A stretch of DNA of 64,000 nt, from NCBI RefSeq assembly GCF_019968605.1, contig NZ_CP082966.1, positions 731,001-795,000 of the forward strand, read 5' to 3'. The position numbers and the translations under genes were made by a program. The notes below the pieces were generated by a model, which did not search any database, was not told the DNA's origin, and saw only the letters and a program-made list of their open reading frames with translations. Positions 38,421 through 61,568 of the stretch are shown piece by piece (positions within the stretch are counted from its first letter, which is position 1; every line of letters begins with the position of its first letter). Origin of the DNA: Polaribacter litorisediminis (GTDB lineage Bacteria; Bacteroidota; Bacteroidia; Flavobacteriales; Flavobacteriaceae).

Positions 38421-38506
38421 GAAAGAACCTGGTTAATAATTAAAAAAATAACAACCGGAAATTATTGAAAAATGGGTTGAAAACAGACGTCTAAGGCTCA
38501 TTATTT

Positions 38507-38535
38507 ACGTTCATGTATTTACCATTGCGTTTCAC
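38507..38535 (+). promoter_or_regulatory. Weak candidate LytTR box pair
   Basis: ACGTTCATG (38507-38515) and GCGTTTCAC (38527-38535) lie 20 bp apart, the spacing of the pairs at 52852 and 54740. A -7 box at the matching distance is not convincing, and the next gene starts 139 nt away. Confidence 0.3.
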
Positions 38536-38673
38536 ATCGTTTATAAATTTCTTTGTGAAAAGCAACAGGTAAATTGAATAATTAAACAACTAATTACATT
38601 ACAAAAGGTTCAAAGACAACCGAATTACCAGTTGGAATAAATCAAATATGTCAAAGTACTTAAAATAAGGATA

Positions 38674-39237
38674 ATGCTTAAAAAGGAATTAGAAACATAC
38701 TGCCCTAAAAACCGATTGGAATGGCGTGGCTGGTTAGAAAAAAATCATCACTCAACACATGCTATTTGGCTTGTATATTATAAAACAGCAACAAAAACAC
38801 CTTCTCTTAGTTGGAGTGAAGCGGTTGATGAAGCATTATGTTTTGGGTGGATAGATAGCACTAAAAAGACTATAGATGACAAAAGATATATGCAATATTT
38901 CAGCAAAAGAAAACCTAAAAGTGTTTGGTCTAAGATAAATAAAGAAAAGGTTGACTTACTCATTCAAAATAAACAAATGACAAAAACAGGTTTTGAAAGT
39001 ATCGCTATTGCTAAACAAAATGGGTATTGGTCAATTATGGATGATGTAGAAAACTTAATCATTCCAAATGATTTGCAAAAAGCGTTAGCCGCTCATCAAA
39101 ATTCATTCAAAAATTTTCTGAGTTTGAGTAAATCGAAACAAAAAGAACTGTTAGGCTGGATTGTTTTAGCGAAGCTCCCTGAAACCAAACAGAAAAGAAT
39201 ACGTAAAATTATAGAATATGTCAATCAAGGAATTTAA
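38674..39237 (+). CDS. YdeI/OmdA family protein
   Basis: 187 residues. The N-terminal pattern ETYCPKNRLEWRGWLEKNHH, IWLVYYKTAT, LSWSEAVDEALCFGWIDSTK is the YdeI (bacteriocin-protection) family; the C-terminal helical tail LGWIVLAKLPETKQKRIRK is also usual. The molecular function is not established. It stands alone on the plus strand. Confidence 0.85.
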   Translation: MLKKELETYCPKNRLEWRGWLEKNHHSTHAIWLVYYKTATKTPSLSWSEAVDEALCFGWIDSTKKTIDDKRYMQYFSKRKPKSVWSKINKEKVDLLIQNKQMTKTGFESIAIAKQNGYWSIMDDVENLIIPNDLQKALAAHQNSFKNFLSLSKSKQKELLGWIVLAKLPETKQKRIRKIIEYVNQGI

Positions 39238-48561: not shown

Positions 48562-49830
48562 TTAAAATGGATACCTATTTACGTTTTTATGTTGCCATAA
48601 AAGATTGATAATACTCCATTTACCATCTAATTTTATGAGATGTAAATATTCAACCCAATTATCTGAATATAGTTTTACAGTTGCTATTCTATGATATATA
48701 TCTAGTATTTTAATTTCATTTTTAGGATTTGGAGGAAATTTAGTATTTGATTTATTCCAGTTTTCTGCATTTTCTATCATACGTTTTTTAGAAATAGCGT
48801 TTGTAACTTCTTTTTTTAAAGTCCTACTATATCCAACAGAAACCTTGTTTAAGCTATCATTCATTACTTCTTTCATCAACTTTGGTTTCAAATCTTGTAA
48901 AGCAATTAAGTAGCCTAAAGAAATTCTTTTGATTTCTACACTGTCTTTTTGAGATGCTTTTTTGCTTAAAGCAACATTTTGATTATTTGAAATATTTCTG
49001 CCTCTAATGAACTTCATGTCTTGATCATAATGCGCCTGTTTAATATAATTTCCTATTGCATCGTATTCTTTAGTTCCTATAGCTAGTCCAATTTGATTCA
49101 GAACCAATTTATTGTCTTTATCATGATACGTATATTTTATATGATTTCCATAAGTGTCATAAGTATCTTGATAAGAGGCAACTCCTGCAGTATTATTAAT
49201 AATTTTATAATCTTTACTTAAATTATAATTTGCAATTGGTGTTCCATCTTTTCTAAAGGTCATACCAGTTATTCCAAATTCAAAATATGTAGAAAGATTT
49301 TTTGGCTCATTTTTTAGATTAAATCGCTTTTCTACAATCATTTTTTTATGCTTAAACCAAACATATTTTGATATTTCCCAATTAGACTCCATTGGTTTAT
49401 CAACAATATCAAAAAACTCTAATTTAGTATAATTTAAATTTCTGCCTTTTGTAAAAACTTCTTTGTAAACCTTTCTATCATTAGTAATTCGTTTCCCATT
49501 TTTATTAAAGAAAATTCGTGTTTCTATATCTTTTGTGTGCGTGATAACTGTTTTGTAAGCTCCGATTGATGTCAAAGGATGGCTTCTTTCAGTAAAATAA
49601 TGATTATTGGTAATTTCAACCAAATCATTACGATCATTGTATGTAAAAATATAATGAGATGTTTCTTTTGCAGTATTAACATCTAAAGGATATGTCCCAG
49701 TTAATTTAATGTATGGTGATACATGATTGTATCTTAAATGTCTAAAGTATTTTCGAGTTGAATTTTGAGCCAGAGTAATACTTGTAATCAATAAAACGAT
49801 GATCGAGATTGTAAAATTTTTAAAATTCAT
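48562..49830 (-). CDS. Secreted protein with C-terminal lumazine-binding-like (NTF2) domain
   Basis: 422 residues. Signal peptide (ISIIVLLITSITLAQ). The middle contains tyrosine-rich YD-like strands (DTYDTYGNHIKYTYHDKDNK, EYDAIGNYIKQAHYDQDM). The C-terminal 120 residues (SLGYLIALQDLKPKLMKEVM, then VEYLHLIKLDGKWSIINLLW) match putative lumazine-binding NTF2-like domains. Function unknown. It follows the gene at 49832 by one base, in the same operon. Confidence 0.7.
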   Translation of the reverse strand: MNFKNFTISIIVLLITSITLAQNSTRKYFRHLRYNHVSPYIKLTGTYPLDVNTAKETSHYIFTYNDRNDLVEITNNHYFTERSHPLTSIGAYKTVITHTKDIETRIFFNKNGKRITNDRKVYKEVFTKGRNLNYTKLEFFDIVDKPMESNWEISKYVWFKHKKMIVEKRFNLKNEPKNLSTYFEFGITGMTFRKDGTPIANYNLSKDYKIINNTAGVASYQDTYDTYGNHIKYTYHDKDNKLVLNQIGLAIGTKEYDAIGNYIKQAHYDQDMKFIRGRNISNNQNVALSKKASQKDSVEIKRISLGYLIALQDLKPKLMKEVMNDSLNKVSVGYSRTLKKEVTNAISKKRMIENAENWNKSNTKFPPNPKNEIKILDIYHRIATVKLYSDNWVEYLHLIKLDGKWSIINLLWQHKNVNRYPF

Positions 49831-49831
49831 T

Positions 49832-50824
49832 TTAGTTTTTTTTATTTAATGCTCTTTCTGTAGCTTCAAGTTTTGGCAACATTTTTAAATATGCTTCTAC
49901 ATCCCAAGTTAAATCCCATCTATTTAAATTTTCTTGCATAGTGTTTAGCCCCATTTCAGCTCTTCTTTTATCTACCTTTCTAGCATCATTTAAAGGTAAA
50001 ACATATGGTTTTTTACGCTCCTTACTCATTGCCAATTGTGTACCATATACTTGTCTTTTTCCTTGCCCTAAAAGTAATCTGTCATAAAACATAGCATACT
50101 GTCTTTTAGGTAGCCAGTTGTTTTTTAGAGCCTCATTTATCATTGGTAAATATTTTAGTTTTACGTCTTGATTTCCATGTTGAATCACAAGAAAAATTGT
50201 TGATGCGCCTCTTGTACCAATTTTTTCTTTACTTGGCCAACCTTGAGTGTCTAATATTTTACTAACTTTAATTAAGTTGATAGAATCCTTTTTAAGAATA
50301 CTTCCCCAAAAAGCACGCATTTCTTTAGAATCTCTTCCATATTTTTCTTCTTTACTTCTAATTTGACTTCGTGTACTTTGATCATCAAAATAGATTTTAT
50401 CTAAAACTGCAACTAACTCTTTATCGTAATGTTTTTCAATCTCTTGCTTGTTTTTTTGCATCACAGAAATCAATTCATTCCATCTTTTGTCTTTTCGTAG
50501 GTTTGTTAAATCTGTATCATTTTTTAAATGATTGATGTCATACCACTTCAATTCATTGGCTGCAACAAAAAGGTGTTTGTAGGCTGCATTAAGATTATTA
50601 TCTAAAGAGTTTATACAGGCAGCATTATATCTGTCATTTAAAGGAACATTCGTATTTATTTTAAAAGCTTGGTCATAAAGTTTTGCAGATTCTTTAAATT
50701 TTTTTTCTAAGCATAGTTTCCAACCAGCCCTAATTAATTCTGAGTAACTTTTTTGATTTGATTGTCCATTTGCACTGAAATTTATAATCATTACAAAAAA
50801 TAAGATTAAATAGCGTTTCATCAT
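49832..50824 (-). CDS. DUF6624-type secreted protein
   Basis: 330 residues. Signal peptide ending NFSANGQ, a TPR-like helix pair (LIRAGWKLCLEKKFKESAKL), then a domain with RAFWGSILKKDSINLIKVSK, TIFLVIQHG and LPMINEALKNNWLPKRQYAM, the DUF6624 pattern. Function unknown. First gene of a two-gene minus-strand operon, divergent from the first LytS-type kinase. Confidence 0.7.
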   Translation of the reverse strand: MMKRYLILFFVMIINFSANGQSNQKSYSELIRAGWKLCLEKKFKESAKLYDQAFKINTNVPLNDRYNAACINSLDNNLNAAYKHLFVAANELKWYDINHLKNDTDLTNLRKDKRWNELISVMQKNKQEIEKHYDKELVAVLDKIYFDDQSTRSQIRSKEEKYGRDSKEMRAFWGSILKKDSINLIKVSKILDTQGWPSKEKIGTRGASTIFLVIQHGNQDVKLKYLPMINEALKNNWLPKRQYAMFYDRLLLGQGKRQVYGTQLAMSKERKKPYVLPLNDARKVDKRRAEMGLNTMQENLNRWDLTWDVEAYLKMLPKLEATERALNKKN

Positions 50825-51078
50825 TTTTTTTTATTTTAAATTAAAAATCATTGCAATAAAATAAAATCTTGATTTGTATTTTTATTTAGTAGATAGATTC
50901 CGATAAATTGCAAACGGAAAGTAGATTTTAGTATTAATTCTGTTTTGTTTGCAAAAAATCTTTGTTAAGCATCTTTAATCAGGAGTTCATCTACATATAT
51001 GTAATACTATCCATTTTATGAATACATTTGAGTTTAATAGGCTTCATAATAAAAACATCTAAATTGTATATTTTAGCA

Positions 51079-52134
51079 ATGATGAAAAATTTATTTTCAA
51101 AACATATAGTTCGTAATTTTCTTTTTTGGATGATTATGTTTCTGTATTTAATAAGTTCGTATTGGAACATAGATCATGATAAGGGCTATGTATTTCTATA
51201 TATTGGCTTTAAATTTTTTTTACAATTTATTTTAAGTCTTATCATTATAAAATTATTAATACCTCAGTTATTACATAGAAAAAAAGTTATACTATTTATT
51301 ATTTGCTCTTTAATTTCTATTTATTTAATGCAAACCTTCTACAGTGTTGCTAGGGTATATTATTTCGAAATTCATTATCCAGAAATATATAAAATGCAAC
51401 CTCCTTATATTTTGTTTGATAGAATGACTTCTTTTGTTCGGTTTTTAAGCAATATCACTTGGTTAGTTTTTCCTACGATAATATTTATAGCAATAAAATA
51501 TTATAGTGATCAAAAAGATATTATTGAGTTAAAAGAACAAAAAAAATCTACAGAGCTCTCTTTATTAAAAAATCAACTAAATCCGCATTTTTTATTCAAT
51601 ACGTTGAATAACTTATACGCTTTATCACTAAAAAAATCTGATAAAACTCCAGAAGTAATAGCAAAACTTTCAGAAATTTTAGACTATATTTTATACCAAT
51701 GCAAAGACAACTATGTTTCAATTAATAAGGAAATTGAATTATTAGAAAATTATATAGCTTTAGAAAAACTTAGGTATGGTAAAAGGGTGAACGTCACATT
51801 TGAAAAAGATATTCAAAATAATGTAAATATTGCTCCTTTAGTTTTATTAACTTTTGTAGAAAATGCTTTTAAACATGGTGTTAGTCAAGAGTTAACCACT
51901 AGTTTTATAGATATAAAAATATCAGCTACAGAAAATGAAATAATATTCAAATTAAAAAATAGTAAACCTAGAGTAGACACTGAACTTATTAAAAGCACTA
52001 AAAAATCTATAGGAATGCAAAATACCAAAAAGCAATTAGATTTATTGTACCCAAATAAGTATCAATTAGAGATTGAAAATACAGCTTCTCACTACTCTTT
52101 AGAGCTAAAACTTACGTTAAATGGAAAAGTATAA
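51079..52134 (+). CDS. LytS-type sensor histidine kinase 1
   Basis: 351 residues from ATG 51079 (a TTG 51 nt upstream is possible but overlaps a TATATTTT promoter-like box). Four membrane helices, then the short kinase core: His170 in NQLNPHFLFNTLNN and the ATPase domain (TFVENAFKHGVSQ, SIGMQNTKKQLDLLYP). It lacks any sensor domain outside the membrane helices. Overlaps the response regulator by 14 nt. Confidence 0.9.
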   Translation: MMKNLFSKHIVRNFLFWMIMFLYLISSYWNIDHDKGYVFLYIGFKFFLQFILSLIIIKLLIPQLLHRKKVILFIICSLISIYLMQTFYSVARVYYFEIHYPEIYKMQPPYILFDRMTSFVRFLSNITWLVFPTIIFIAIKYYSDQKDIIELKEQKKSTELSLLKNQLNPHFLFNTLNNLYALSLKKSDKTPEVIAKLSEILDYILYQCKDNYVSINKEIELLENYIALEKLRYGKRVNVTFEKDIQNNVNIAPLVLLTFVENAFKHGVSQELTTSFIDIKISATENEIIFKLKNSKPRVDTELIKSTKKSIGMQNTKKQLDLLYPNKYQLEIENTASHYSLELKLTLNGKV

Positions 52135-52816
52135 ATGTTTAATCGTTGATGATGAGGAATTAGCAAGAGAGTTAATTGCCACGCATCTTAATCAATTACC
52201 ATATTTTGAAATTATTGCTACCTGTGCTTCAGCAATCGAAGCAAATTCTGTCTTGAAAAATAATACGATTGACTTATTATTTCTAGATATAGAAATGCCA
52301 GTTTTAAAAGGAACAGACTTTTTAAAAAATTTAAGGAATCAACCAAAAGTTATATTTACTACAGCTCATAGAGAATATGCAATAGAAAGTTATGAGTTAA
52401 ATGTGGTAGATTATTTATTAAAGCCTATTATTTTTAATCGTTTTTTTAAAGCGATAGAAAAGTTCTTAGAGACCCAAGTTGTTGTGAAACCTGCAACTAG
52501 TAAACCTGAATTGACTCATATTTTTATAAGAAGTAATCAGAAAAATATAAAACTGTATTATGATGATATTTTATATATAGAAAGCCTTAAAGACTATATT
52601 AAAATACATAAAAAAGAAGAAAAACTGTTAATAAAGCATGGTATTTCTGCTTTTAAAGAGAAGCTAGATAATCGTTTTATAAGAGTGCATAGATCTTACA
52701 TAGTTAACAAGCAAAAAGTTACTGCTTACACAAAACAAGATATTGAAATTGGCGAAATTGAAATACCAATTGGAGATTTATACAGAAAAAACACTTTGGA
52801 AATACTGAAAGTGTAA
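52121..52816 (+). CDS. LytTR response regulator 1
   Basis: 231 residues. Receiver domain with Asp10/Asp11 and phosphoacceptor Asp56 (LLFLDIEMP), Lys in VDYLLKP; C-terminal LytTR DNA-binding domain (about 130-228; DILYIESLKDYIKIHKKEE, FIRVHRSYIVN). LytTR proteins bind paired boxes in promoters. Partner of the kinase at 51079 by gene overlap. The nearest paired boxes are 36 nt downstream. Confidence 0.92.
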   Translation: MEKYKCLIVDDEELARELIATHLNQLPYFEIIATCASAIEANSVLKNNTIDLLFLDIEMPVLKGTDFLKNLRNQPKVIFTTAHREYAIESYELNVVDYLLKPIIFNRFFKAIEKFLETQVVVKPATSKPELTHIFIRSNQKNIKLYYDDILYIESLKDYIKIHKKEEKLLIKHGISAFKEKLDNRFIRVHRSYIVNKQKVTAYTKQDIEIGEIEIPIGDLYRKNTLEILKV

Positions 52817-52851
52817 ATCCTTATATTTTTTATAAAAACATCAATTATTTA

Positions 52852-52920
52852 ACGTTAACTCTTAAATAAATACGCTCATGTATTTATTTTTCCTATTTTA
52901 AGGCAAATTACGTTGCTTTG
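52852..52920 (+). promoter_or_regulatory. Paired LytTR-like boxes and promoter of kinase operon 2
   Basis: ACGTTAACT (52852) and ACGCTCATG (52872) lie 20 bp apart; the second begins 41 bp before the -7 box TTGCTTTG (52913-52920), and the ATG follows at 52930. The same sequence pattern and spacings are repeated at 54740-54808. Boxes two helical turns apart just upstream of the promoter fit an activating LytTR dimer. Confidence 0.72.
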
Positions 52921-52929
52921 TAGTCTATT

Positions 52930-54012
52930 ATGAGTTTACATCTAAATAAAAAATTATCAAAAATACACTTATACTGGAAATGCCAATTAGTAGGTTGGAG
53001 TCTAGTATCTATTTATTGGGCATACACGGTTTATACAAGAGATAATTATGGTTTCTTTTACACGCTATTAAATTATGTATCAGATATTGCTATTGGAATA
53101 TTCTTAACGCATATGTATAGAGTCTATGCTTTAAAAGCTGAATGGAGTAAATTGCCAATAAAACAATTAATAGTAAGAGTAATTCCTAGTATACTTTTAC
53201 TAGCAATTTTATATGTATTCCTAAACAATTTAAAATGGATTTTTTTCAGAACCTTTTTTGTGATAAAGAATGTTGATTTTTTAGAGTCAATGATGTATTG
53301 GGATCCGATTTTACTCACAGGACTTCGTTTAATGTCAATTTGGGTATTAGCCTATCATTTATATCATTATTATCAAAAAGAAGTAGTTACAGCTAAAGAA
53401 AATGCGCAATTATCTTTAATCGCTAAACAAGCACAATTAGATAACTTAGCAGCGCAATTGAATCCTCATTTTTTGTTTAATTCATTAAACTCAATAAAAT
53501 CTTTAGTCATTGAAAACCCAGATACAGCTAGAAGATCCATTGATTTGTTGTCAGATTTATTACGTTCATCCCTATATGAAAAAGACGAAGGTTTAATTAC
53601 CATTAAAGAGGAGTTGTCTTTAGTGAAAGATTATATTGAATTGGAAAAAATGCGTTTTGAAGAACGATTGCATTTAGAAATTTCTGTAGATAAAATAGTA
53701 CACAATTTTAAAATACCTACTTTAAGTATTCAGTTATTGGTTGAAAATGCAATTAAACATGGTATTGATTTAATTGTTAAAGGAGGAACTATAGGCCTTG
53801 TTATACAAAAGAAACACGATTTCATTGAAATCATAGTTAAAAACCCTGGAAGTATTGATGATACAAAAAGGGCAGGTTTGGGCTTAAAAAATTTGCAAAA
53901 GAGATTAACACTTCAATATAAAAACCAAGCTACTTTTAACTTAACTCAAACAAATACAGAAGAAGTTGAAGCAAAAATAACAATACCTTTTATAGCTGAT
54001 GAAAATATTTAA
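52930..54012 (+). CDS. LytS-type sensor histidine kinase 2
   Basis: 360 residues. Four hydrophobic helices up to about residue 150, a coiled linker (TAKENAQLSLIAKQAQLDNL), His180 in AQLNPHFLFNSLNS, and the ATPase N/G boxes (QLLVENAIKHGI, AGLGLKNLQKRL). Overlaps its response regulator by 14 nt, the same as pair 1. Its own promoter contains LytTR-like boxes. Confidence 0.92.
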   Translation: MSLHLNKKLSKIHLYWKCQLVGWSLVSIYWAYTVYTRDNYGFFYTLLNYVSDIAIGIFLTHMYRVYALKAEWSKLPIKQLIVRVIPSILLLAILYVFLNNLKWIFFRTFFVIKNVDFLESMMYWDPILLTGLRLMSIWVLAYHLYHYYQKEVVTAKENAQLSLIAKQAQLDNLAAQLNPHFLFNSLNSIKSLVIENPDTARRSIDLLSDLLRSSLYEKDEGLITIKEELSLVKDYIELEKMRFEERLHLEISVDKIVHNFKIPTLSIQLLVENAIKHGIDLIVKGGTIGLVIQKKHDFIEIIVKNPGSIDDTKRAGLGLKNLQKRLTLQYKNQATFNLTQTNTEEVEAKITIPFIADENI

Positions 54013-54721
54013 AACCATAATTATTGATGATGAACGTTTAGCGAGAGAAGAAGTAAAACGTGCACTACAAAAACATAAAGAGTTTAAAATTATTGGGGAA
54101 GCAAGTCATGCAGATGAAGCCATAGAATTAATTGAAGACTTACAACCAGATATTTTGTTTTTAGACATTCATATGCCTGGAAAATCTGGGTTTGATTTGT
54201 TAGAAGAATTAACAAATGTACCAGATGTTGTTTTTACAACGGCTTATGATCAATATGCTGTAAAAGCTTTTGAGATGAATGCGTTAGATTATTTAGTGAA
54301 ACCTTTAAGAGACGAACGTTTTTCTAAAACTATAGAAAAAGTAAAAGTAGAATTGTCTAAAAGAGTACAATTAGAGTCTACAATTTTACCCATGCATCAA
54401 AAAATCTTTATCAAAGATGGCGAAAAATGTTATTTTATTCCGCTAACAGAGATACATTTTATTGAGTCTTTAGAAAATTATGCACGTTTGTATTTTGGTT
54501 CAGATAAAGCTATGATTAAACGCTCATTAAATTTATTAGCAGAGAAATTAGATCCTAAAGTCTTTTTTAGGGTGAATAGAAGTCAAATAATCAACATACA
54601 TTACATTAAAGAGATTCATCCCTACTTTAATAATAAACTCCAAATTATATTAACTACTGGAGAAAAAGTAGAAGTGTCTAGCAGGCAATCTGTTAAGTTT
54701 AAAAACTGGAATAGTTTATAA
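53999..54721 (+). CDS. LytTR response regulator 2
   Basis: 240 residues. Receiver with Asp10/Asp11, Asp56 (ILFLDIHMP), Lys in LDYLVKP; LytTR domain from about residue 132 (EIHFIESLENYARLYFGSD, FRVNRSQIINIHYIKE). Sits between two promoters with matching boxes, making it the best candidate regulator of both its own operon and the lipoprotein-hydrolase operon. Confidence 0.93.
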   Translation: MKIFKTIIIDDERLAREEVKRALQKHKEFKIIGEASHADEAIELIEDLQPDILFLDIHMPGKSGFDLLEELTNVPDVVFTTAYDQYAVKAFEMNALDYLVKPLRDERFSKTIEKVKVELSKRVQLESTILPMHQKIFIKDGEKCYFIPLTEIHFIESLENYARLYFGSDKAMIKRSLNLLAEKLDPKVFFRVNRSQIINIHYIKEIHPYFNNKLQIILTTGEKVEVSSRQSVKFKNWNSL

Positions 54722-54739
54722 AAAATATCACTTATTTTA

Positions 54740-54808
54740 ACGTTCATTTACATTTATTTACGCTCCTGTACTTTCTCTTTAATATTGGTTACAAACATCT
54801 TTAATTTG
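54740..54808 (+). promoter_or_regulatory. Paired LytTR-like boxes and promoter of the lipoprotein-hydrolase operon
   Basis: ACGTTCATT (54740) and ACGCTCCTG (54760), 20 bp apart; the second begins 41 bp before TTAATTTG (54801-54808), a near match to TAnnTTTG. Spacings are identical to those at 52852-52920, and TTTAACGTT and TACGCTC are shared. Confidence 0.72.
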
Positions 54809-54834
54809 TATTGTAATTAATTAAAACACACATC

Positions 54835-55458
54835 ATGAATTATCTTAGAAAAAAACAAATCATACTTAAATTTTTATACTTAATCGTATTTATTGGATTG
54901 TATTCTTGCAATAAAGAGACAGCAACGGAAGCAAAACAACCAACCCTAAAAGACTATACAGTTGGAGAAAAATGGGTTTGGAAATATAAAGGAGTAACAG
55001 ACAAAGGTGAAGTACGTTCAGATGGTGAAGATGTAAGAAAAACAGTTAAAATGCCTTATGGTTTAGGTATGACAATTGGAAAAGATACAGTTCCAGTTTC
55101 AGATATCGTAAAGCCTGATGAAAGTGAAACTCCAAGATACAAATGGCCTTTAAAAGTTGGCAAAAAGTGGAAATACGAGAAGAACTGGACAAGTCAAGAT
55201 GGAACAACAGGAAAACAAAGTCAAGATGTAGAAGTTTTATCTTACAAAGAAGAAAAAGTAGGAGCAGGAACATTCATGGCATATACAATTGAATACAAAG
55301 GAACAATTTCCAATTCCAGAGGATATAGTGCAAGAACAGATGAAGTATGGTTATATGCACCAAAAGTGAAAAACTTTATAAAGCTAACACAAACTCAAGA
55401 TGACTTTGTGTATAATGAAGAGTTAATTGAATATACAAACTCGAATAAGAAACAATAA
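54835..55458 (+). CDS. Lipoprotein of unknown function
   Basis: 207 residues. Lipobox YSCN (cysteine near residue 25). The mature part is beta-rich (YTVGEKWVWKYKGVTDKG, PLKVGKKWKYEKNW, AGTFMAYTIEYKGTISNSRG), recalling proteins that measure a precursor's 'VGK.W.Y' strands such as DUF3108-like folds. First gene of an operon with the CocE/S15 hydrolase, under a LytTR-like promoter. Confidence 0.7.
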   Translation: MNYLRKKQIILKFLYLIVFIGLYSCNKETATEAKQPTLKDYTVGEKWVWKYKGVTDKGEVRSDGEDVRKTVKMPYGLGMTIGKDTVPVSDIVKPDESETPRYKWPLKVGKKWKYEKNWTSQDGTTGKQSQDVEVLSYKEEKVGAGTFMAYTIEYKGTISNSRGYSARTDEVWLYAPKVKNFIKLTQTQDDFVYNEELIEYTNSNKKQ

Positions 55459-55488
55459 GATTTGTTCTCATTTTTTAAAATAAAACTA

Positions 55489-57705
55489 ATGAAAAAATCA
55501 GTTCTAATATTAATTCTAACCTTAAATAGTATTTGTTTTTTTGGGCAAGAAATATTATTTCAGAAAGTTACTTTAACAGATTCAGTTGCTATTGCAAAAC
55601 AAATGAAAAAAATAGCAGAATTTTGTGATACAGAAAACATGTCTGAATTAGATGTGTTTAAGTTTCAATTAATAAGAGGTAATTATAAAGAGGCATTAAT
55701 TACCATCAAAAACAGAATTCAAGAAACACCAGCAAATCAAAGACAGTATTTAGATGTTTACCTGCATTATGTGGAAGCAAAGTTGTCTAAAAACTTTAAA
55801 GATGCGTTTAAAAAATCATATAGAAAATATGTAAAGAACTCTGATGATATTCAAGTGATTAATTTAGATAAAGCCTTAATCATTAGAGATCCTACTGATT
55901 ATTATGTGAGCAATTTTAAAAATACGTATAACAATATTAAATCAGAAAAGATATCACAAGAAATAGCTATAGATTTAGTAAAAAAATATTTTTTAAGTAC
56001 GGTATTTTCATCAACGAGAGCTATTTATTTTGAAGCAATAAAACAAGATCATAAACGTAGGTATGCCATAAATGATAGTATTGTAATCCCTATGAAAGAT
56101 GGTGCAGAGGTATCAATGGTGGTTGTAAAACGAAAAGGAAAATCGTCAAGTAAAAAATCGGCAATATTCGTTTCATCCATATATGCAGGAACCAATGAGG
56201 TTAGTGCTATGTTATCAGCATCTAAAGGTTATGTTGGAGTGATTGCAAATACAAGAGGAAAAAGATTAAGCAAAAGCGAAATAAAACCACTAGAATATGA
56301 ACATACAGATGTGTATGAAGTAATTGATTGGATTAGTAAACAATCGTGGTCTAATCAAAAAGTAGCCATGTTTGGTGGGAGTTACAATGGCTTTACACAA
56401 TGGGCTTCCATGAAACACAAAGTGCATCCTGCTTTAAAAACAATGGTACCTATGGTTGCTATTGCTCCAGGAATTGATTACCCAATGGAAAATAATGTAT
56501 TACACAATTATTCGTATTCTTGGAATTTCTATGTCACCAACAACAAGTTTTTAGATTTTAAAGCATCTAATGATTTTAATCGCTGGAATTCATTAAAAAA
56601 CACCTGGTACAAAACAGGAGTGGCATTTAACAAATTGGATAGTTTGGATGGTCAAGTAAACAAATTATGGAATACGTATATGCAACACCCAAGCTATGAT
56701 GATTTTTGGAAAAAAATGATCCCATACAAACAAGAATTTGCAAAAATTGACATTCCTATTTTAACCATTACTGGGTATTATGATGACTCACAAAGAGGAG
56801 CAATGTATTATTTTAACGAGCATCATAAATATACTAAAAATGCAAATCATTATTTGTTAGTTGGTCCTTATGATCACTGGACTGCGCAAACCAAGCCAGA
56901 AGAAAGTCTAAGAAATCACAAACTAGACAAAGTTGCTTTACTGAATATTGAAGAAGATCTTCTTTATCAATGGTTTGATTATATTTTAAAAGGAAAAGAA
57001 AAACCTAATGTTTTAAAAGATAAAGTCAACTTTCAAGTAATGGGCACCAATACCTGGATGCATAAACCGAGTTTAAATGCTATGACAAATGACACTTTGC
57101 AGTTTCATTTAAGTGATCATATAACTAACGATTTTTACGCTTTAAAACCAAAATCAAATAATTCAGAGATTTCCATGTCTGTAGATTTTAAAGACAGAAA
57201 AACTATGAATAACACAGACTATTATCCATGGCCTCTAGAACGTAATCAAATCAATGTAAATGATGGGTTGATTTTTAAATCTGAAACCTTAAAAGAAGAT
57301 GTTATCATCAATGGTTCATTTTCAGGGAATCTTGAGTTTTCAATCAATAAAAAAGATGTTGATTATTCTGTTATTCTTTATCAATTAACTCCAGAAGGCA
57401 ACTACTTTCATTTAAGCTATTATATTGGTAGAGCTAGTTATGCTAAAGATCGAGAACAAAGAAATTTATTGATACCAAATCAAAAAACGCAAGTTTCTTT
57501 CAATAATTCGAAACTAATCAGTAAAAAATTAGAGAAAGGAAGTCGCATTGTAGTTGTGGTTAATGTTAATAAAAACAATAATGCTCAAATCAATTATGGT
57601 ACTGGAAAGGATGTGAATATTGAAAGTATGAAAGATGCTGAAATTCCTTTGAACATCACTTTTACAGGAAATAGTTCTATTTCTTTACCTGTGTTTAAAA
57701 TTTAG
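55489..57705 (+). CDS. CocE/NonD-type hydrolase (S15 family)
   Basis: 738 residues from ATG 55489, giving a signal peptide (LILILTLNSICFFGQ). An N-terminal helical part of about 180 residues precedes the alpha/beta-hydrolase with Ser298 in GGSYNGF, Asp in GYYDDSQRG and His in GPYDHW, then the C-terminal jelly-roll domain of X-Pro dipeptidyl peptidases (FSGNLEFSINKKDVDYSVIL). Likely a periplasmic acyl- or peptidyl-hydrolase. Starts 30 nt after the lipoprotein. Confidence 0.87.
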   Translation: MKKSVLILILTLNSICFFGQEILFQKVTLTDSVAIAKQMKKIAEFCDTENMSELDVFKFQLIRGNYKEALITIKNRIQETPANQRQYLDVYLHYVEAKLSKNFKDAFKKSYRKYVKNSDDIQVINLDKALIIRDPTDYYVSNFKNTYNNIKSEKISQEIAIDLVKKYFLSTVFSSTRAIYFEAIKQDHKRRYAINDSIVIPMKDGAEVSMVVVKRKGKSSSKKSAIFVSSIYAGTNEVSAMLSASKGYVGVIANTRGKRLSKSEIKPLEYEHTDVYEVIDWISKQSWSNQKVAMFGGSYNGFTQWASMKHKVHPALKTMVPMVAIAPGIDYPMENNVLHNYSYSWNFYVTNNKFLDFKASNDFNRWNSLKNTWYKTGVAFNKLDSLDGQVNKLWNTYMQHPSYDDFWKKMIPYKQEFAKIDIPILTITGYYDDSQRGAMYYFNEHHKYTKNANHYLLVGPYDHWTAQTKPEESLRNHKLDKVALLNIEEDLLYQWFDYILKGKEKPNVLKDKVNFQVMGTNTWMHKPSLNAMTNDTLQFHLSDHITNDFYALKPKSNNSEISMSVDFKDRKTMNNTDYYPWPLERNQINVNDGLIFKSETLKEDVIINGSFSGNLEFSINKKDVDYSVILYQLTPEGNYFHLSYYIGRASYAKDREQRNLLIPNQKTQVSFNNSKLISKKLEKGSRIVVVVNVNKNNNAQINYGTGKDVNIESMKDAEIPLNITFTGNSSISLPVFKI

Positions 57706-57718
57706 TATTAACTAGAAA

Positions 57719-57764
57719 AAAGCTTAAGTCTAAAATCGTTACATAAAAAAAAGTCTTAAGCTTT
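57719..57764 (-). terminator. Hairpin between the convergent hydrolase and regulator-3 genes
   Basis: AAAGCTTAAG (57719-57728) pairs with CTTAAGCTTT (57755-57764) across a 26-nt A-rich loop. The right arm overlaps the last codons of response regulator 3. T runs are present on both strands, so it may end both transcripts. Confidence 0.55.
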
Positions 57765-58496
57765 ATTACCTTTATTGTTGCTCATATTTTCGATCACATT
57801 CAAAAATTCCTCTCTATAATTACTACTTATTGGAATTTCTTTTCCATCAATAATTACAGCATGTTTTTTTACAGTTTCTATATGTTTTAAAGCTATGATA
57901 TAAGATCGATGAATTCTCATAAAATATTTTTTTGGAAGCAATTCTAGTACTTCAGATATTTTATAACGAGCCAAAATAGATCTATTTGTAGTTTTAAACG
58001 TCACATAATTACCATCGCTTTCAATATATTTAATATTATCAATAGACAATTGATGAAAATCTGACCCACTTTTTATAAAAACAGATTGGTTAGAAATAGT
58101 TTTAGAAATATTGGTAGTATCTATAATTTTGTTTTCAGAGCTGTTAATCAGCATCTCTTTTACTTTCATTACTGCTTGAATTAATCGATCAAATTCTATA
58201 GGTTTCAGTAAGTAATCAATAGCATTTAATTCGTAGCTTTTTAAAGCATATTCAGAGTAAGCAGTTGTAAAAATAATTAGAGGCGGTTTTTTTAGAAACT
58301 TTGGAAAACTAATGCCTGATAATTTGGGCATATTAATATCTAATAAAATAAAATCAATCGGATTTTTTTGCAAATAATCGAGGGCTTCTAATGGGTCTCT
58401 AAAAGAATTCTTCACGTCAACAAAAGGGATGTTACTTAAATGAAATTTAAGAACATCAATAGCTGCGGGCTCATCATCTATTATTACACAATTCAT
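57756..58496 (-). CDS. LytTR response regulator 3
   Basis: 246 residues. Receiver with Asp7/Asp8, Asp53 (FILLDINMP), Lys in IDYLLKP; LytTR domain (about 140-240; NIKYIESDGNYVTFKTTNRS, YFMRIHRSYIIALKHIETV). It follows kinase 3 by 8 nt on the minus strand. No box pair like those of system 2 is seen before this operon, so its DNA target probably differs. Confidence 0.92.
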   Translation of the reverse strand: MNCVIIDDEPAAIDVLKFHLSNIPFVDVKNSFRDPLEALDYLQKNPIDFILLDINMPKLSGISFPKFLKKPPLIIFTTAYSEYALKSYELNAIDYLLKPIEFDRLIQAVMKVKEMLINSSENKIIDTTNISKTISNQSVFIKSGSDFHQLSIDNIKYIESDGNYVTFKTTNRSILARYKISEVLELLPKKYFMRIHRSYIIALKHIETVKKHAVIIDGKEIPISSNYREEFLNVIENMSNNKGNKA

Positions 58497-58504
58497 ATAA
58501 TTTG

Positions 58505-59536
58505 CTAATCGAGTTGTAGATTGAGTAAAGATATAAAATATCCTTTTTCTTCTTTGGTTTCTAGAGTATACGCCTTAGGATAAAGAATAGAAAGCCTTTT
58601 TTTTAGATTATCTAGTCCAAATCCAGATGATTCATCATTCAAACCATAAGTCCCTTGTCTGATAGTATTACCTACCTTAAACGTTAACCTATTATGCGTA
58701 ACTTTTAATGAGATATCTATGATTGATTTTGATTTGGGATCAATTCCATGTTTTATTGCATTTTCAACAAACGGAATGAGTAACATTGGACTTATTTTAG
58801 GTGTACTAACTTCCCCTTGAATATCAAAATTTATATACACTTCATCTTCTTCTGCTATTCGTAATTGATACACCTGAATGAAGTTTTTAAGGTGGTGAAT
58901 TTCTTTTTCGAGAGATACTTTATCCGAATTGGTTTCATAGACCATATAACGCATTAATTCTGCTAATTTAGCAATGCCATCAGCTAATTCCGGAACATTA
59001 TGCTTTAAAGATTTGGCATAGAAACTATTTAAAACATTAAATAAAAAATGAGGATTAATTTTTGATTTTAAAAAAGCCATTTCTGTAGAAAGCTTTTCTT
59101 CTAATAATACCCTTTTCAGTTTCTCATTATGAATCCAATATTTAATTAATGAATAGGATAAAGCAACTAAAAGTATAAAAAAACTAATTACGGCGTTGTA
59201 TATTAAATGTACAGTAAAAGACTCATTTTCAGAGGAAAAAAAAGAGGCTAAATAGCTAAAATCAATGCTGCTTTCTAAAAAGTTAATGAAAATAAATCCA
59301 CCTAATACGGAAAGAACTAATAACTTTATTTTTTTTAAACGTAAAAACTTTGGAACTAAATAAAAGGCAGTCCCATAAAATATAATTTGATTGATTATGG
59401 TACCAAAACCAATAGCAACCCAATATGGGCCTTGGTCTTTTCTAAAATCACCAATAGTAGATGTGTAATTTAAAATTAAAAAGTAACCAATTGCCCAAAG
59501 GAATATATGAATTATTGGTTCTATAAATTTTTTCAT
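58505..59536 (-). CDS. LytS-type sensor histidine kinase 3
   Basis: 343 residues. Four hydrophobic helices (to about residue 130), then His163 in SKINPHFLFNVLNS and the ATPase domain (LLIPFVENAIKHGIDP, SGFGLDNLKKRLSILYP). Faces the serine hydrolase at 59760 divergently. Pairs with the regulator 8 nt downstream. Confidence 0.92.
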   Translation of the reverse strand: MKKFIEPIIHIFLWAIGYFLILNYTSTIGDFRKDQGPYWVAIGFGTIINQIIFYGTAFYLVPKFLRLKKIKLLVLSVLGGFIFINFLESSIDFSYLASFFSSENESFTVHLIYNAVISFFILLVALSYSLIKYWIHNEKLKRVLLEEKLSTEMAFLKSKINPHFLFNVLNSFYAKSLKHNVPELADGIAKLAELMRYMVYETNSDKVSLEKEIHHLKNFIQVYQLRIAEEDEVYINFDIQGEVSTPKISPMLLIPFVENAIKHGIDPKSKSIIDISLKVTHNRLTFKVGNTIRQGTYGLNDESSGFGLDNLKKRLSILYPKAYTLETKEEKGYFISLLNLQLD

Positions 59537-59759
59537 TTCATATGTTTAAGATTCAAAAATAACGTTTTATTCTTTTTCTAAATTTAAAAGTGATGAATTG
59601 ATTATATGATGTGACCAAAATTGATGTTACTGTTAAGTATCAGCTGTTTCACATGTTTTAAAGGTTTTGAAACATTTAAAAGGCGGCTCATCACATTCAT
59701 TTTTGTATACAATTTTTACGATTTATTATTGCCTAATATTAATCGTAAGATATTTAAAA

Positions 59760-61568
59760 ATGAAAAAATCAATCGTAGTTTTAGTTACATTAATCCTTAG
59801 TTTTAGTGGATTTAGTCAAGAGAATTCTAACTTTAAATTAGAAGATAAAATCAACGAAGTGTTTCAAAGTTATGCGCACTATAATCGTTTTATAGGAAAT
59901 GTACTCATAAGTAAAGAGAACAAAATTATTTACAATAAAAGTTTTGGGTTTGCTGATGTAGAAAAGAACAAAAAGAATTCTAAAAAATCGATTTTTAGTA
60001 TTGCTTCTGTAACCAAACCATTAACAGCAGTAGGGATTATGAAGTTGGTTGAAGAAGGTAAGCTTTCATTGGAAACGCCTATTAGTACTTTTTATCCAAA
60101 TTTTATTCCAGAGTATTCAAAAAAAATCACAATTCGTCATTTACTAAATCATAGTTCAGGAATGCAGGCAAATATTGGGAGGATAGATGATCAAGGTAAT
60201 GGTTTAATGCCTGGAGAAAATGCAATTACTATAGATGAACTTTTGGAAAAATTTAAAGATTCAAAATTAAAATTTGAACCAGGAAAAGGATATGAGTACA
60301 ATAACTTTGGTTATACACTTTTAGCTAATATAATTGAAAAAGTAACTGGTAAATCTTATGCTGATTATATGGAAGAAACCATATTTGAGCCAGCCAGTAT
60401 GAAAAACACTGCTGTAAATACGTATAAAAAACTAAGATATAAAGCGTATTCACATATAGGTTTGGGTATGCAATCATTTAAAAAATTAGATTATCCTATT
60501 CATACCTCCTGGATTAAAGGTGCAGGAAATATTAATGCTACCGCTAAAGATTTATACAATTTTATGACAGCTTTGGAAAATGGAACTTTATTAAAACCTT
60601 TATATACAGATAAAATATATAGCAATACACAGCCTACTGGATATAATGACACGAGATACGGATTTGGGTGGAGAATTGAAAACAAAGGAGGAGAAAAATG
60701 GATTAATCATACAGGTTTACTTCCTGGAACAGCTTCTATTATTGGATTTTTGCCAGAGAAAAATATTAAAATAATTATTTTATCAAATGCAACTACAACA
60801 GACCTTATTTCTGAAAGTACTTTTCAAGGAAAAAATCAATTTGTTGATGGAGCTATAATCGATAATCTAATTAAAATAATACAAAACAAAGCCCCAGAAT
60901 TACTACCTATAGCTGTTAAATCTAAAAACAAAAAAGTAAAAAACTCTAAAAAGACCTACAGCCTTGATAATGAGCACTCATTAATGATTACGAAAGAAGA
61001 TGATAGCTATTTATTAAAAACAATAGGAGAAGAACCTTGGTCAATTTTTACGTATCAATTTTCAAGAAATGCAGCAAAAAATAATAAAGCAAGTGAAGCC
61101 GCTTTATTTTTTGCAAATGCAATGAGCACTCAAAATTTTGAAGGTCTTGCCAAGTATGGAAATGATGAGATGAAAGGGTTTTTAGGTTCTGATCAAGGCG
61201 TAAATCAGTTAAAAGGAATGTGGGATTACTTTATCAAACAAGCAGGTACTTTTAAATCGTATAATATTTATAAAATTATAGGAGAAAAGAATAAAAATGT
61301 ACATGTAAGATTTCATTTTGAAAAAGAAGATGTTGGTTTTGTTTTAGGTCTTAACGCTTCAAATAAAATACAAGGAATGTTTATGGATGATGCTATCAAA
61401 ACAAGCACCATTGCATCGGTAAAACTAATTCCTATACATGAAAATGAATTTTTTATCAATGGACATCAAAATGAGGGTATGCAAGATTTGAGAATAAAGG
61501 TATCTGAAAAAGGAATGATCCTAATAGATGGAAACATAGAGTTCAATGCTCAGATTTTAAAATACTAA
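59760..61568 (+). CDS. Secreted serine hydrolase (beta-lactamase fold) with extra C-terminal domain
   Basis: 602 residues from ATG 59760, chosen for its signal peptide (SIVVLVTLILSFSGFSQ). Ser83-Lys86 in SVTKP, Tyr-Asn in YEYNNFGY, and HTGLLPG late in the domain make an intact beta-lactamase/DD-peptidase-like enzyme. The C-terminal 200 residues include FFANAMSTQNFEGLAKYGND and KGMWDYFIKQAGTFKSYNIY, an NTF2-like domain. Between 59536 and 59760 a 7-bp inverted repeat (TGTTTCA...TGAAACA, 59645-59674) is seen. Confidence 0.85.
   Translation: MKKSIVVLVTLILSFSGFSQENSNFKLEDKINEVFQSYAHYNRFIGNVLISKENKIIYNKSFGFADVEKNKKNSKKSIFSIASVTKPLTAVGIMKLVEEGKLSLETPISTFYPNFIPEYSKKITIRHLLNHSSGMQANIGRIDDQGNGLMPGENAITIDELLEKFKDSKLKFEPGKGYEYNNFGYTLLANIIEKVTGKSYADYMEETIFEPASMKNTAVNTYKKLRYKAYSHIGLGMQSFKKLDYPIHTSWIKGAGNINATAKDLYNFMTALENGTLLKPLYTDKIYSNTQPTGYNDTRYGFGWRIENKGGEKWINHTGLLPGTASIIGFLPEKNIKIIILSNATTTDLISESTFQGKNQFVDGAIIDNLIKIIQNKAPELLPIAVKSKNKKVKNSKKTYSLDNEHSLMITKEDDSYLLKTIGEEPWSIFTYQFSRNAAKNNKASEAALFFANAMSTQNFEGLAKYGNDEMKGFLGSDQGVNQLKGMWDYFIKQAGTFKSYNIYKIIGEKNKNVHVRFHFEKEDVGFVLGLNASNKIQGMFMDDAIKTSTIASVKLIPIHENEFFINGHQNEGMQDLRIKVSEKGMILIDGNIEFNAQILKY

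Follow-up and report, generated by a model that had tools for sequence, protein, structure and literature searches.

A Paired-Box Promoter Element Shared by a LytTR Two-Component Operon and a Lipoprotein-Hydrolase Operon in Polaribacter litorisediminis and Its Proposed Recognition by the LytTR Regulator RR2

Genes and Promoter Elements of the HK2-RR2 Locus

We analyzed a stretch of 64,000 nucleotides from Polaribacter litorisediminis (contig NZ_CP082966.1, positions 731,001 to 795,000 of the forward strand), hereafter called the window, whose own numbering is used throughout. It encodes a LytS-type histidine kinase (HK2) and a response regulator with a receiver and a LytTR domain (RR2), the reading frames of which overlap (Table 1). 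HK2-RR2 presents itself as a LytS/LytTR two-component system, with a PF06580 kinase beside a receiver plus PF04397 regulator. Behind it follow a small lipoprotein-like protein (LP) and a hydrolase of the CocE/NonD family. LP matched no Pfam or NCBIfam family at E 0.001 and no PDB sequence relative at E 1. Its AlphaFold model is all-beta (pLDDT 89.5) and resembles YmcC-fold lipoproteins weakly (best E 1.7e-5, TM 0.42-0.47) and LolA still more weakly, similarities that do not settle its role. For the hydrolase, the ATG at 55489 is a more likely start than the listed TTG at 55462.

Further LytTR genes are located on both sides. The region 48562-52816, which codes for a DUF6624 protein, a lumazine-binding-like protein, and the LytTR pair HK1/RR1 (system 1), is missing from the corresponding place in G024, a close relative, and thus has either been gained here or lost there. 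At 57756-61568, a third LytTR pair (HK3/RR3) is divergently oriented to a large beta-lactamase-fold serine hydrolase. Relatives of this trio also occur near HK2 in loci L042 and L250, and a scan of the window with the profile described below yielded no strong match between HK3/RR3 and the divergent serine hydrolase gene.

Table 1. Features of the window that belong to the two operons, their promoters, and the candidate third target.
Feature	Position	Strand	Remarks
Third site, box 1, GACGTCTAA	38486..38494	+	box at 38487
Third site, box 2 with extension, TACGTTCATGTATTTA	38506..38521	+	box at 38507; located by profile and weight matrices
Third site, -7 box, TTTCTTTG	38548..38555	+	spacing to box 2 again 41 bp
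OmdA/YdeI-family protein (PF13376), candidate third target	38674..39237	+	predicted 114-nt leader
HK2 promoter, box 1 (LytTR-like), AACGTTAAC	52851..52859	+	ACGTT at 52852; predicted -74 to -66
HK2 promoter, box 2 with extension, TACGCTCATGTATTTA	52871..52886	+	ACGCTC at 52872; 9-mer at predicted -54 to -46
HK2 promoter, -7 box, TTGCTTTG	52913..52920	+	41 bp from box 2; predicted +1 at 52925
HK2, LytS-type histidine kinase	52930..54012	+	PF06580, 95.4 bits
RR2, receiver and LytTR response regulator, proposed DNA-binding regulator	53999..54721	+	PF00072, 79.3 bits; PF04397, 81.1 bits
LP promoter, box 1, AACGTTCAT	54739..54747	+	ACGTT at 54740; predicted -74 to -66
LP promoter, box 2 with extension, TACGCTCCTGTACTTT	54759..54774	+	ACGCTC at 54760; 9-mer at predicted -54 to -46
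LP promoter, -7 box, TTAATTTG	54801..54808	+	41 bp from box 2; predicted +1 at 54813
LP, small lipoprotein-like protein	54835..55458	+	207 aa; all-beta model
CocE/NonD-family (S15) hydrolase	55489..57705	+	signal-peptide-like start

The HK2 and LP promoters have the pattern ACGTT-N15-ACGCTC plus TTnnTTTG in common, with spacings of 20 and 41 bp in both cases. An earlier note on this DNA had claimed identical paired boxes with identical spacings at the two promoters, and the coordinates it gave for them (52852/52872/52913 and 54740/54760/54801) proved to be correct throughout. The 9-bp boxes are separated by an 11-bp spacer in both promoters (9-11-9 layout, 20-bp period). According to PMC9723704, the -7 box of sigma-A promoters occupies positions -12 to -5 and has the consensus TAnnTTTG, to which the TTnnTTTG found here is close. 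Box positions relative to +1 were computed from this assignment, and the center of the box pair comes to lie at a predicted -60 in both promoters. The -33 region of these promoters reads CTTT and not TTTG. The -7 box is located very near the HK2 start codon, so that a leader of only 3-5 nt is predicted; it is 5 nt long in the window and 3-5 nt in all 20 HK2 promoters that were gathered (20/20, see below), in each of which the first ATG past the -7 box opens the kinase frame. If the predicted transcription start is correct, the HK2 mRNA would be nearly leaderless. An RNA element at the promoters was considered and rejected, as 50500-58000 yielded nothing in Rfam at gathering score and the predicted transcript begins only downstream of the boxes.

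Conservation of the Element in Related Loci

Loci with RR2 relatives were taken from other genomes (80 loci), 36 of which carry a relative with at least 66% identity. Sites were gathered by a regular expression on box 2 alone, which yielded 48 sites in relatives besides the two in the window. These 50 sites comprise 20 HK2, 19 LP, and 11 Muricauda-type promoters. No site was gathered in the HK2 slot of L053 and in the LP slots of L054 and L056, while L057 and L070-L073 were outside the collection. The LP gene was not found in L054 and L056 when these loci were inspected, and the HK2 site of L053 was found afterwards by the profile (41.5 bits).

In all sites gathered by box 2 alone, TTTG stands in the same register (50/50), which means that the repeats have a fixed distance to, and lie just upstream of, the core promoter; the longer motif T[TA]nnTTTG is present at 41 bp in 48/50. 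The box period is 20 bp in 44/50 sites, 21 bp in four, and unclear in two, and it is among the 11 Muricauda-type promoters that the 21-bp period (four cases) and the unclear box 1 (two cases) occur. Block identities were determined with dereplicated sets of 13 HK2, 13 LP, and 10 Muricauda-type sites. Pairwise identity amounts to 78-91% over the box 2 and -7 blocks (80-90% for the first ten bases of box 2 and 83-91% for the -7 block) but to only 27-51% in the blocks 41-80 bp upstream of box 2. At 53-88%, box 1 is more variable than box 2 and reads ACACTTAAAC or ACGCTTAAC in the upstream regions of the relatives' HK2 genes, whereas the extension TGTACTTTTNCTTT that follows box 2 is conserved to a degree close to that of box 2 itself. 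Upstream of box 1, the sequence of the window, which belongs to system 1, is unrelated to that of G024, where another gene is located, and yet each of the two has a box at 20 bp before box 2 (ACGTTAACT in the window vs. ACGCTTACT in G024).

A profile was built from sequence only, using 32 of the 48 relatives' sites after redundancy reduction and no sequence of the window. Absence of the boxes from orthologous promoters would, according to the earlier note, have refuted its proposal, but at least one profile match was found in 33 of the 36 loci with an RR2 relative of at least 66% identity, whereby 23 of these 33 had supplied training sites. The ten matching loci that had not (L045, L046, L051, L052, L053, L063, L064, L066, L071, and L073) include some that are near-identical to training loci. 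The three loci without a match (L057, L070, and L072) are contigs that start within LP or HK2, or approximately 220 bp upstream of HK2.

Genome-Wide Searches and the Candidate Third Target

The exact pair ACGTT-N15-ACGCTC has three matches in the 4.34-Mb genome, two of which are the HK2 and LP sites; the third one (3803917, minus strand) is absent from the profile matches. A first-order Markov estimate predicts 0.003 occurrences of the exact pair in the window and 0.2 in the genome, and 0.0002 in the genome when TTnnTTTG at +41 is also demanded. These figures flatter the pattern because it was picked by eye, for which reason weight was put on sequence from elsewhere. Relaxed searches were uninformative, both with one mismatch (18 genome matches vs. 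30 for a reversed control pattern) and with two mismatches (11 window matches vs. 5.3 in shuffles, with 1/100 shuffles reaching 11).

In the scan of the own genome, which scored the best 150 of 8,758 first-look candidates and gives rough E-values, the profile ranked the LP site first (43.6 bits, E 1e-10), the HK2 site second (35.4 bits, E 3.8e-8), and a third site third (22.1 bits, E 5.4e-4; 23.4 bits in the window scan), followed by the next match at 15.9 bits. Four weight matrices were trained on relatives, namely on LP promoters only, on HK2 plus Muricauda-type promoters, on Muricauda-type promoters only, and on all of them. Each of the four returned the same three sites as the top three of about 128,000 window positions, with the LP-only matrix placing the third site (5.1) barely over the fourth-ranked position (0.9). 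Matrices derived from one promoter class also recover sites of the other, so both classes have one motif in common.

The third site precedes a gene of the OmdA/YdeI family. A weaker pair had been suspected here before at 38507/38527, and whereas a third target at this place is plausible, the proposed register was one repeat too far: in the profile and the weight matrices, 38507 is the position of box 2, which places box 1 at 38487. In G024, the most closely related genome examined, the corresponding intergenic region is highly identical except that the stretch bearing the site is missing; this stretch was thus gained in this genome or lost in G024. For this reason, the OmdA-family gene is kept as no more than a probable, species-specific third target.

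In relatives, the element was also found before other genes. Genes for an esterase-TPR protein are immediately preceded by a profile match in Polaribacter L053 (27.5 bits) and G134 (34.3 bits). A protein of this type is encoded directly 3' of RR2 in Tenacibaculum L056, and tblastn pieces place an esterase and TPR stretch in the RR2-LP interval of G004. In L044, a site of 52.8 bits precedes two CAAX-type proteases. G229 (L247 4999-5430) contains a shortened LP-like gene with a 43.3-bit site of its own, followed by genes for a NAD-binding protein and a CAAX-type protease, on a contig other than that of the main cluster. Two further cases are less certain: in L055, a 28.4-bit match lies about 240-340 bp before the start of an S9-type hydrolase gene, and in L056, one of 19.5 bits is found about 300 bp before a beta-lactamase-fold hydrolase. 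The strong sites of the genus scan that were opened (G004, G024, G033, and G031) are located before kinase or LP genes, the one in G031 at a contig end.

Co-occurrence of the Element With RR2 and With System 1

The own genome has 21 LytTR matches. Within the loci of 20 of them (L001-L020, 65,346 bases), the only matches besides the HK2 and LP sites reached 13.3 and 8.1 bits, and 44 loci of regulators with at most 51% identity gave no profile match at E 0.1. The idea that the element is a general LytTR promoter signature is thus not supported.

Among 299 genomes of the family, for which the best first-look candidates per genome were scored in both the RR2 and the site scan, an RR2 relative of 72-100% identity was detected in 22, each of which also contains a site at E <=0.001. 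This co-occurrence is partly built in, as the training promoters adjoin RR2 relatives and the training species may be among those scanned. The remaining 277 genomes, which lack an RR2 relative of at least 72%, include four with a site (G094, G139, G129, and G289). In G094, the site lies at a contig end with the start of an HK2 relative behind it, and the matches in G129 (21.5 bits) and G289 (23.3 bits) are weak. The 35-bit site of G139 (L249 5373-5434) is likewise at a contig end and runs into what appears to be hydrolase coding sequence; RR2 was not found in this genome at E 1e-70, and the site possibly represents an assembly error or contamination. G159, whose RR2 relative is 62% identical, belongs to the 277 and has no site at E 0.001; inspected by eye, its kinase promoter (12.9 bits, E 0.05) shows two boxes 20 bp apart and TTAGTTTG 41 bp on.

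In the genus scan (58 genomes), RR2 was detected in four genomes, all of which have sites of at least 35 bits. Outside these four, matches of 18-22.5 bits were obtained in G030, G018, G042, and G045, and a 53.5-bit site occurs at a contig end in G031, a genome of 57% completeness with an RR1 relative of 80% but no detected RR2. An RR1 relative (58-82%) is present in 13 other genomes of the genus, whereby G033 and G004 also contain RR2 and sites. The other 11 are without detected RR2; nine of them gave no match at E 0.01, two 19-bit matches were obtained in G045, and G031 has the strong site. Conversely, G024 carries RR2 and both sites but no system 1 at the locus, and its RR1 relatives reach just 43-46%. 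In G004 (L254 6648-7365), RR2 is interrupted and the element is kept in its promoters.

Proposed Activation by RR2 and Alternative Explanations

Taken together, we consider it very likely that RR2 binds the paired LytTR boxes around -60 and activates the HK2-RR2 and the LP-CocE/NonD operons, with the OmdA-family gene as a probable further target. HK2, upon a presumed signal, would phosphorylate RR2, which would then bind as a pair of LytTR domains to the two 9-bp direct repeats of the ACGYTNAN type. The bound pair would be located about 60 bp upstream of the predicted start and immediately before the weak -33 region of a flavobacterial TTnnTTTG promoter. RR2 would thereby switch on its own operon in a positive feedback and, in addition, the LP-CocE/NonD hydrolase operon; the promoter before the OmdA-family gene would probably be a third target, specific to this species. 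The sites, their geometry, their conservation, and their co-occurrence with RR2 are seen in the sequences themselves; phosphorylation, binding, activation (and not repression), and the presence of a signal are inferred.

The sign of regulation is not given by the sequence alone, and it might be that RR2 binds but represses, which would result in negative feedback and in a hydrolase operon that is released on the signal. This is quite unlikely, since boxes at -74 to -46, i.e., upstream of the core promoter, in a rigid 41-bp register and with CTTT as the -33 region correspond by analogy to an activator geometry as in the AgrA promoters and the promoters presented in PMC6193735.

As to the identity of the regulator, the earlier note had proposed one LytTR protein of either system 2 or system 1, and it is the genomes which carry one system without the other that favor system 2 and speak against system 1. 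Binding of the boxes by the neighboring pair HK1/RR1 (51028-52816) could be suspected from its position directly upstream of HK2 and from the strong site in G031, which was found without a detected RR2 beside an 80% RR1 relative. It is nevertheless highly improbable, as G024 has both sites with no system 1 at the locus, and as the site is missing in nine of the 11 genus genomes with an RR1 relative but no detected RR2. Moreover, RR1 and RR2 are just 35% identical, and RR1 does not have the RR2 stretch around PYFNNK.

The conserved extension behind box 2 would also fit another conserved regulator or an alternative sigma factor that recognizes the whole 70-bp element, and to our knowledge such an extension is not a feature of known LytTR sites. 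The tracking of RR2 by the sites in 22/22 family genomes, with four exceptions among 277, makes this a very slim chance, as does the closeness of the -7 box TTnnTTTG to the sigma-A consensus TAnnTTTG (PMC9723704). That the HK2 and LP promoters, which are alike over about 70 bp, are merely relics of a duplicated promoter without a regulatory role is hardly credible at all, given that the flanks have diverged while the boxes are kept across genera, that a differing box 1 takes the same place in the window and in G024 behind unrelated upstream sequence, and that sites are also found before unrelated hydrolase and protease genes.

Possible Function of the RR2 Regulon

Putative exported or membrane hydrolases are the common thread of the targets seen, and together with the OmdA-family gene they suggest a response to harmful peptides or esters. 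A more far-reaching interpretation, which we put forward with considerable doubt, would be a self-amplifying LytTR switch for exported hydrolases and for envelope protection against peptides or ester antimicrobials, the targets of which are rewired by gaining the rigid 70-bp cassette and the kinase mRNA of which has a leader of 3-5 nt. If this were true, LP and the CocE/NonD hydrolase would be its targets in most loci seen, joined in single lineages by the esterase-TPR protein, the S9-type hydrolase, the beta-lactamase-fold hydrolase, or the CAAX-type proteases, and here by the OmdA-family protein.

Here, a regulator can be read together with the element it is proposed to recognize, with the geometry of the promoters, and with its predicted targets, and tested in several genera. 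Because the 70-bp element is rigid, the regulon can be searched for in other genomes of the family, and the element offers an approach to what the kinase senses and what the secreted hydrolase does.

Comparison With Known LytTR Systems

The kinase, the regulator, the repeats, and the autoregulation each belong to a known kind. What seems to be new is the assignment of a conserved element and a predicted target set to one flavobacterial LytTR system; among the matches listed in a search of the open-access literature, with few subscription journals, there was no paper on a flavobacterial LytTR regulon.

LytTR regulators are described in PMC4847170 to recognize direct repeats of 9-11 nt with spacers of 11-13 nt, and the 9-11-9 layout found here falls within these ranges. 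HK2-RR2 resembles the YpdA/YpdB system of E. coli treated in the same source in that a LytS-type kinase is combined with a LytTR regulator, tandem repeats, and very few targets, YpdB having a single one. It differs in the box (ACGYTNAN here vs. GGCATTTCAT), in the Bacteroidota-type TTnnTTTG promoter, and in its exported-hydrolase targets. The AgrA promoters P2 and P3 of Staphylococcus aureus have paired repeats centered at about -60 (PMC4227749), and paired direct repeats at about -60 upstream of the operon's own promoter are what we found as well. However, core promoter type and box sequence are different here, and no AgrB-like protease was seen beside HK2-RR2: none occurred among the ten neighboring or target proteins scanned (listed ORFs of at least 90 aa), and the overlap of HK2 and RR2 leaves no room between them for a processing protease, unlike in an AgrA quorum-sensing operon.

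Similar in promoter layout are the LytTR systems of S. mutans and the LRS-like operons of Bacteroides presented in PMC6193735, which are autoregulated and have tandem repeats just upstream of the promoter. These systems pair a LytTR protein with a membrane protein, whereas a histidine kinase and a regulator with a receiver domain are present here, so that HK2-RR2 is not an LRS of the S. mutans type. Among the rows listed in the table of that source, the repeats are mostly 9-12-9, with 11-11-11 in Bacteroides, and most of them have a 21-bp period, compared to 9-11-9 and 20 bp in our case. The box ACGCTTAA resembles ACCACTTAN of these systems, and the distance to the promoter is almost the same: in two Bacteroides examples the repeats lie 34 bp before TATCTTTG, and here they lie 33 bp before TTnnTTTG.
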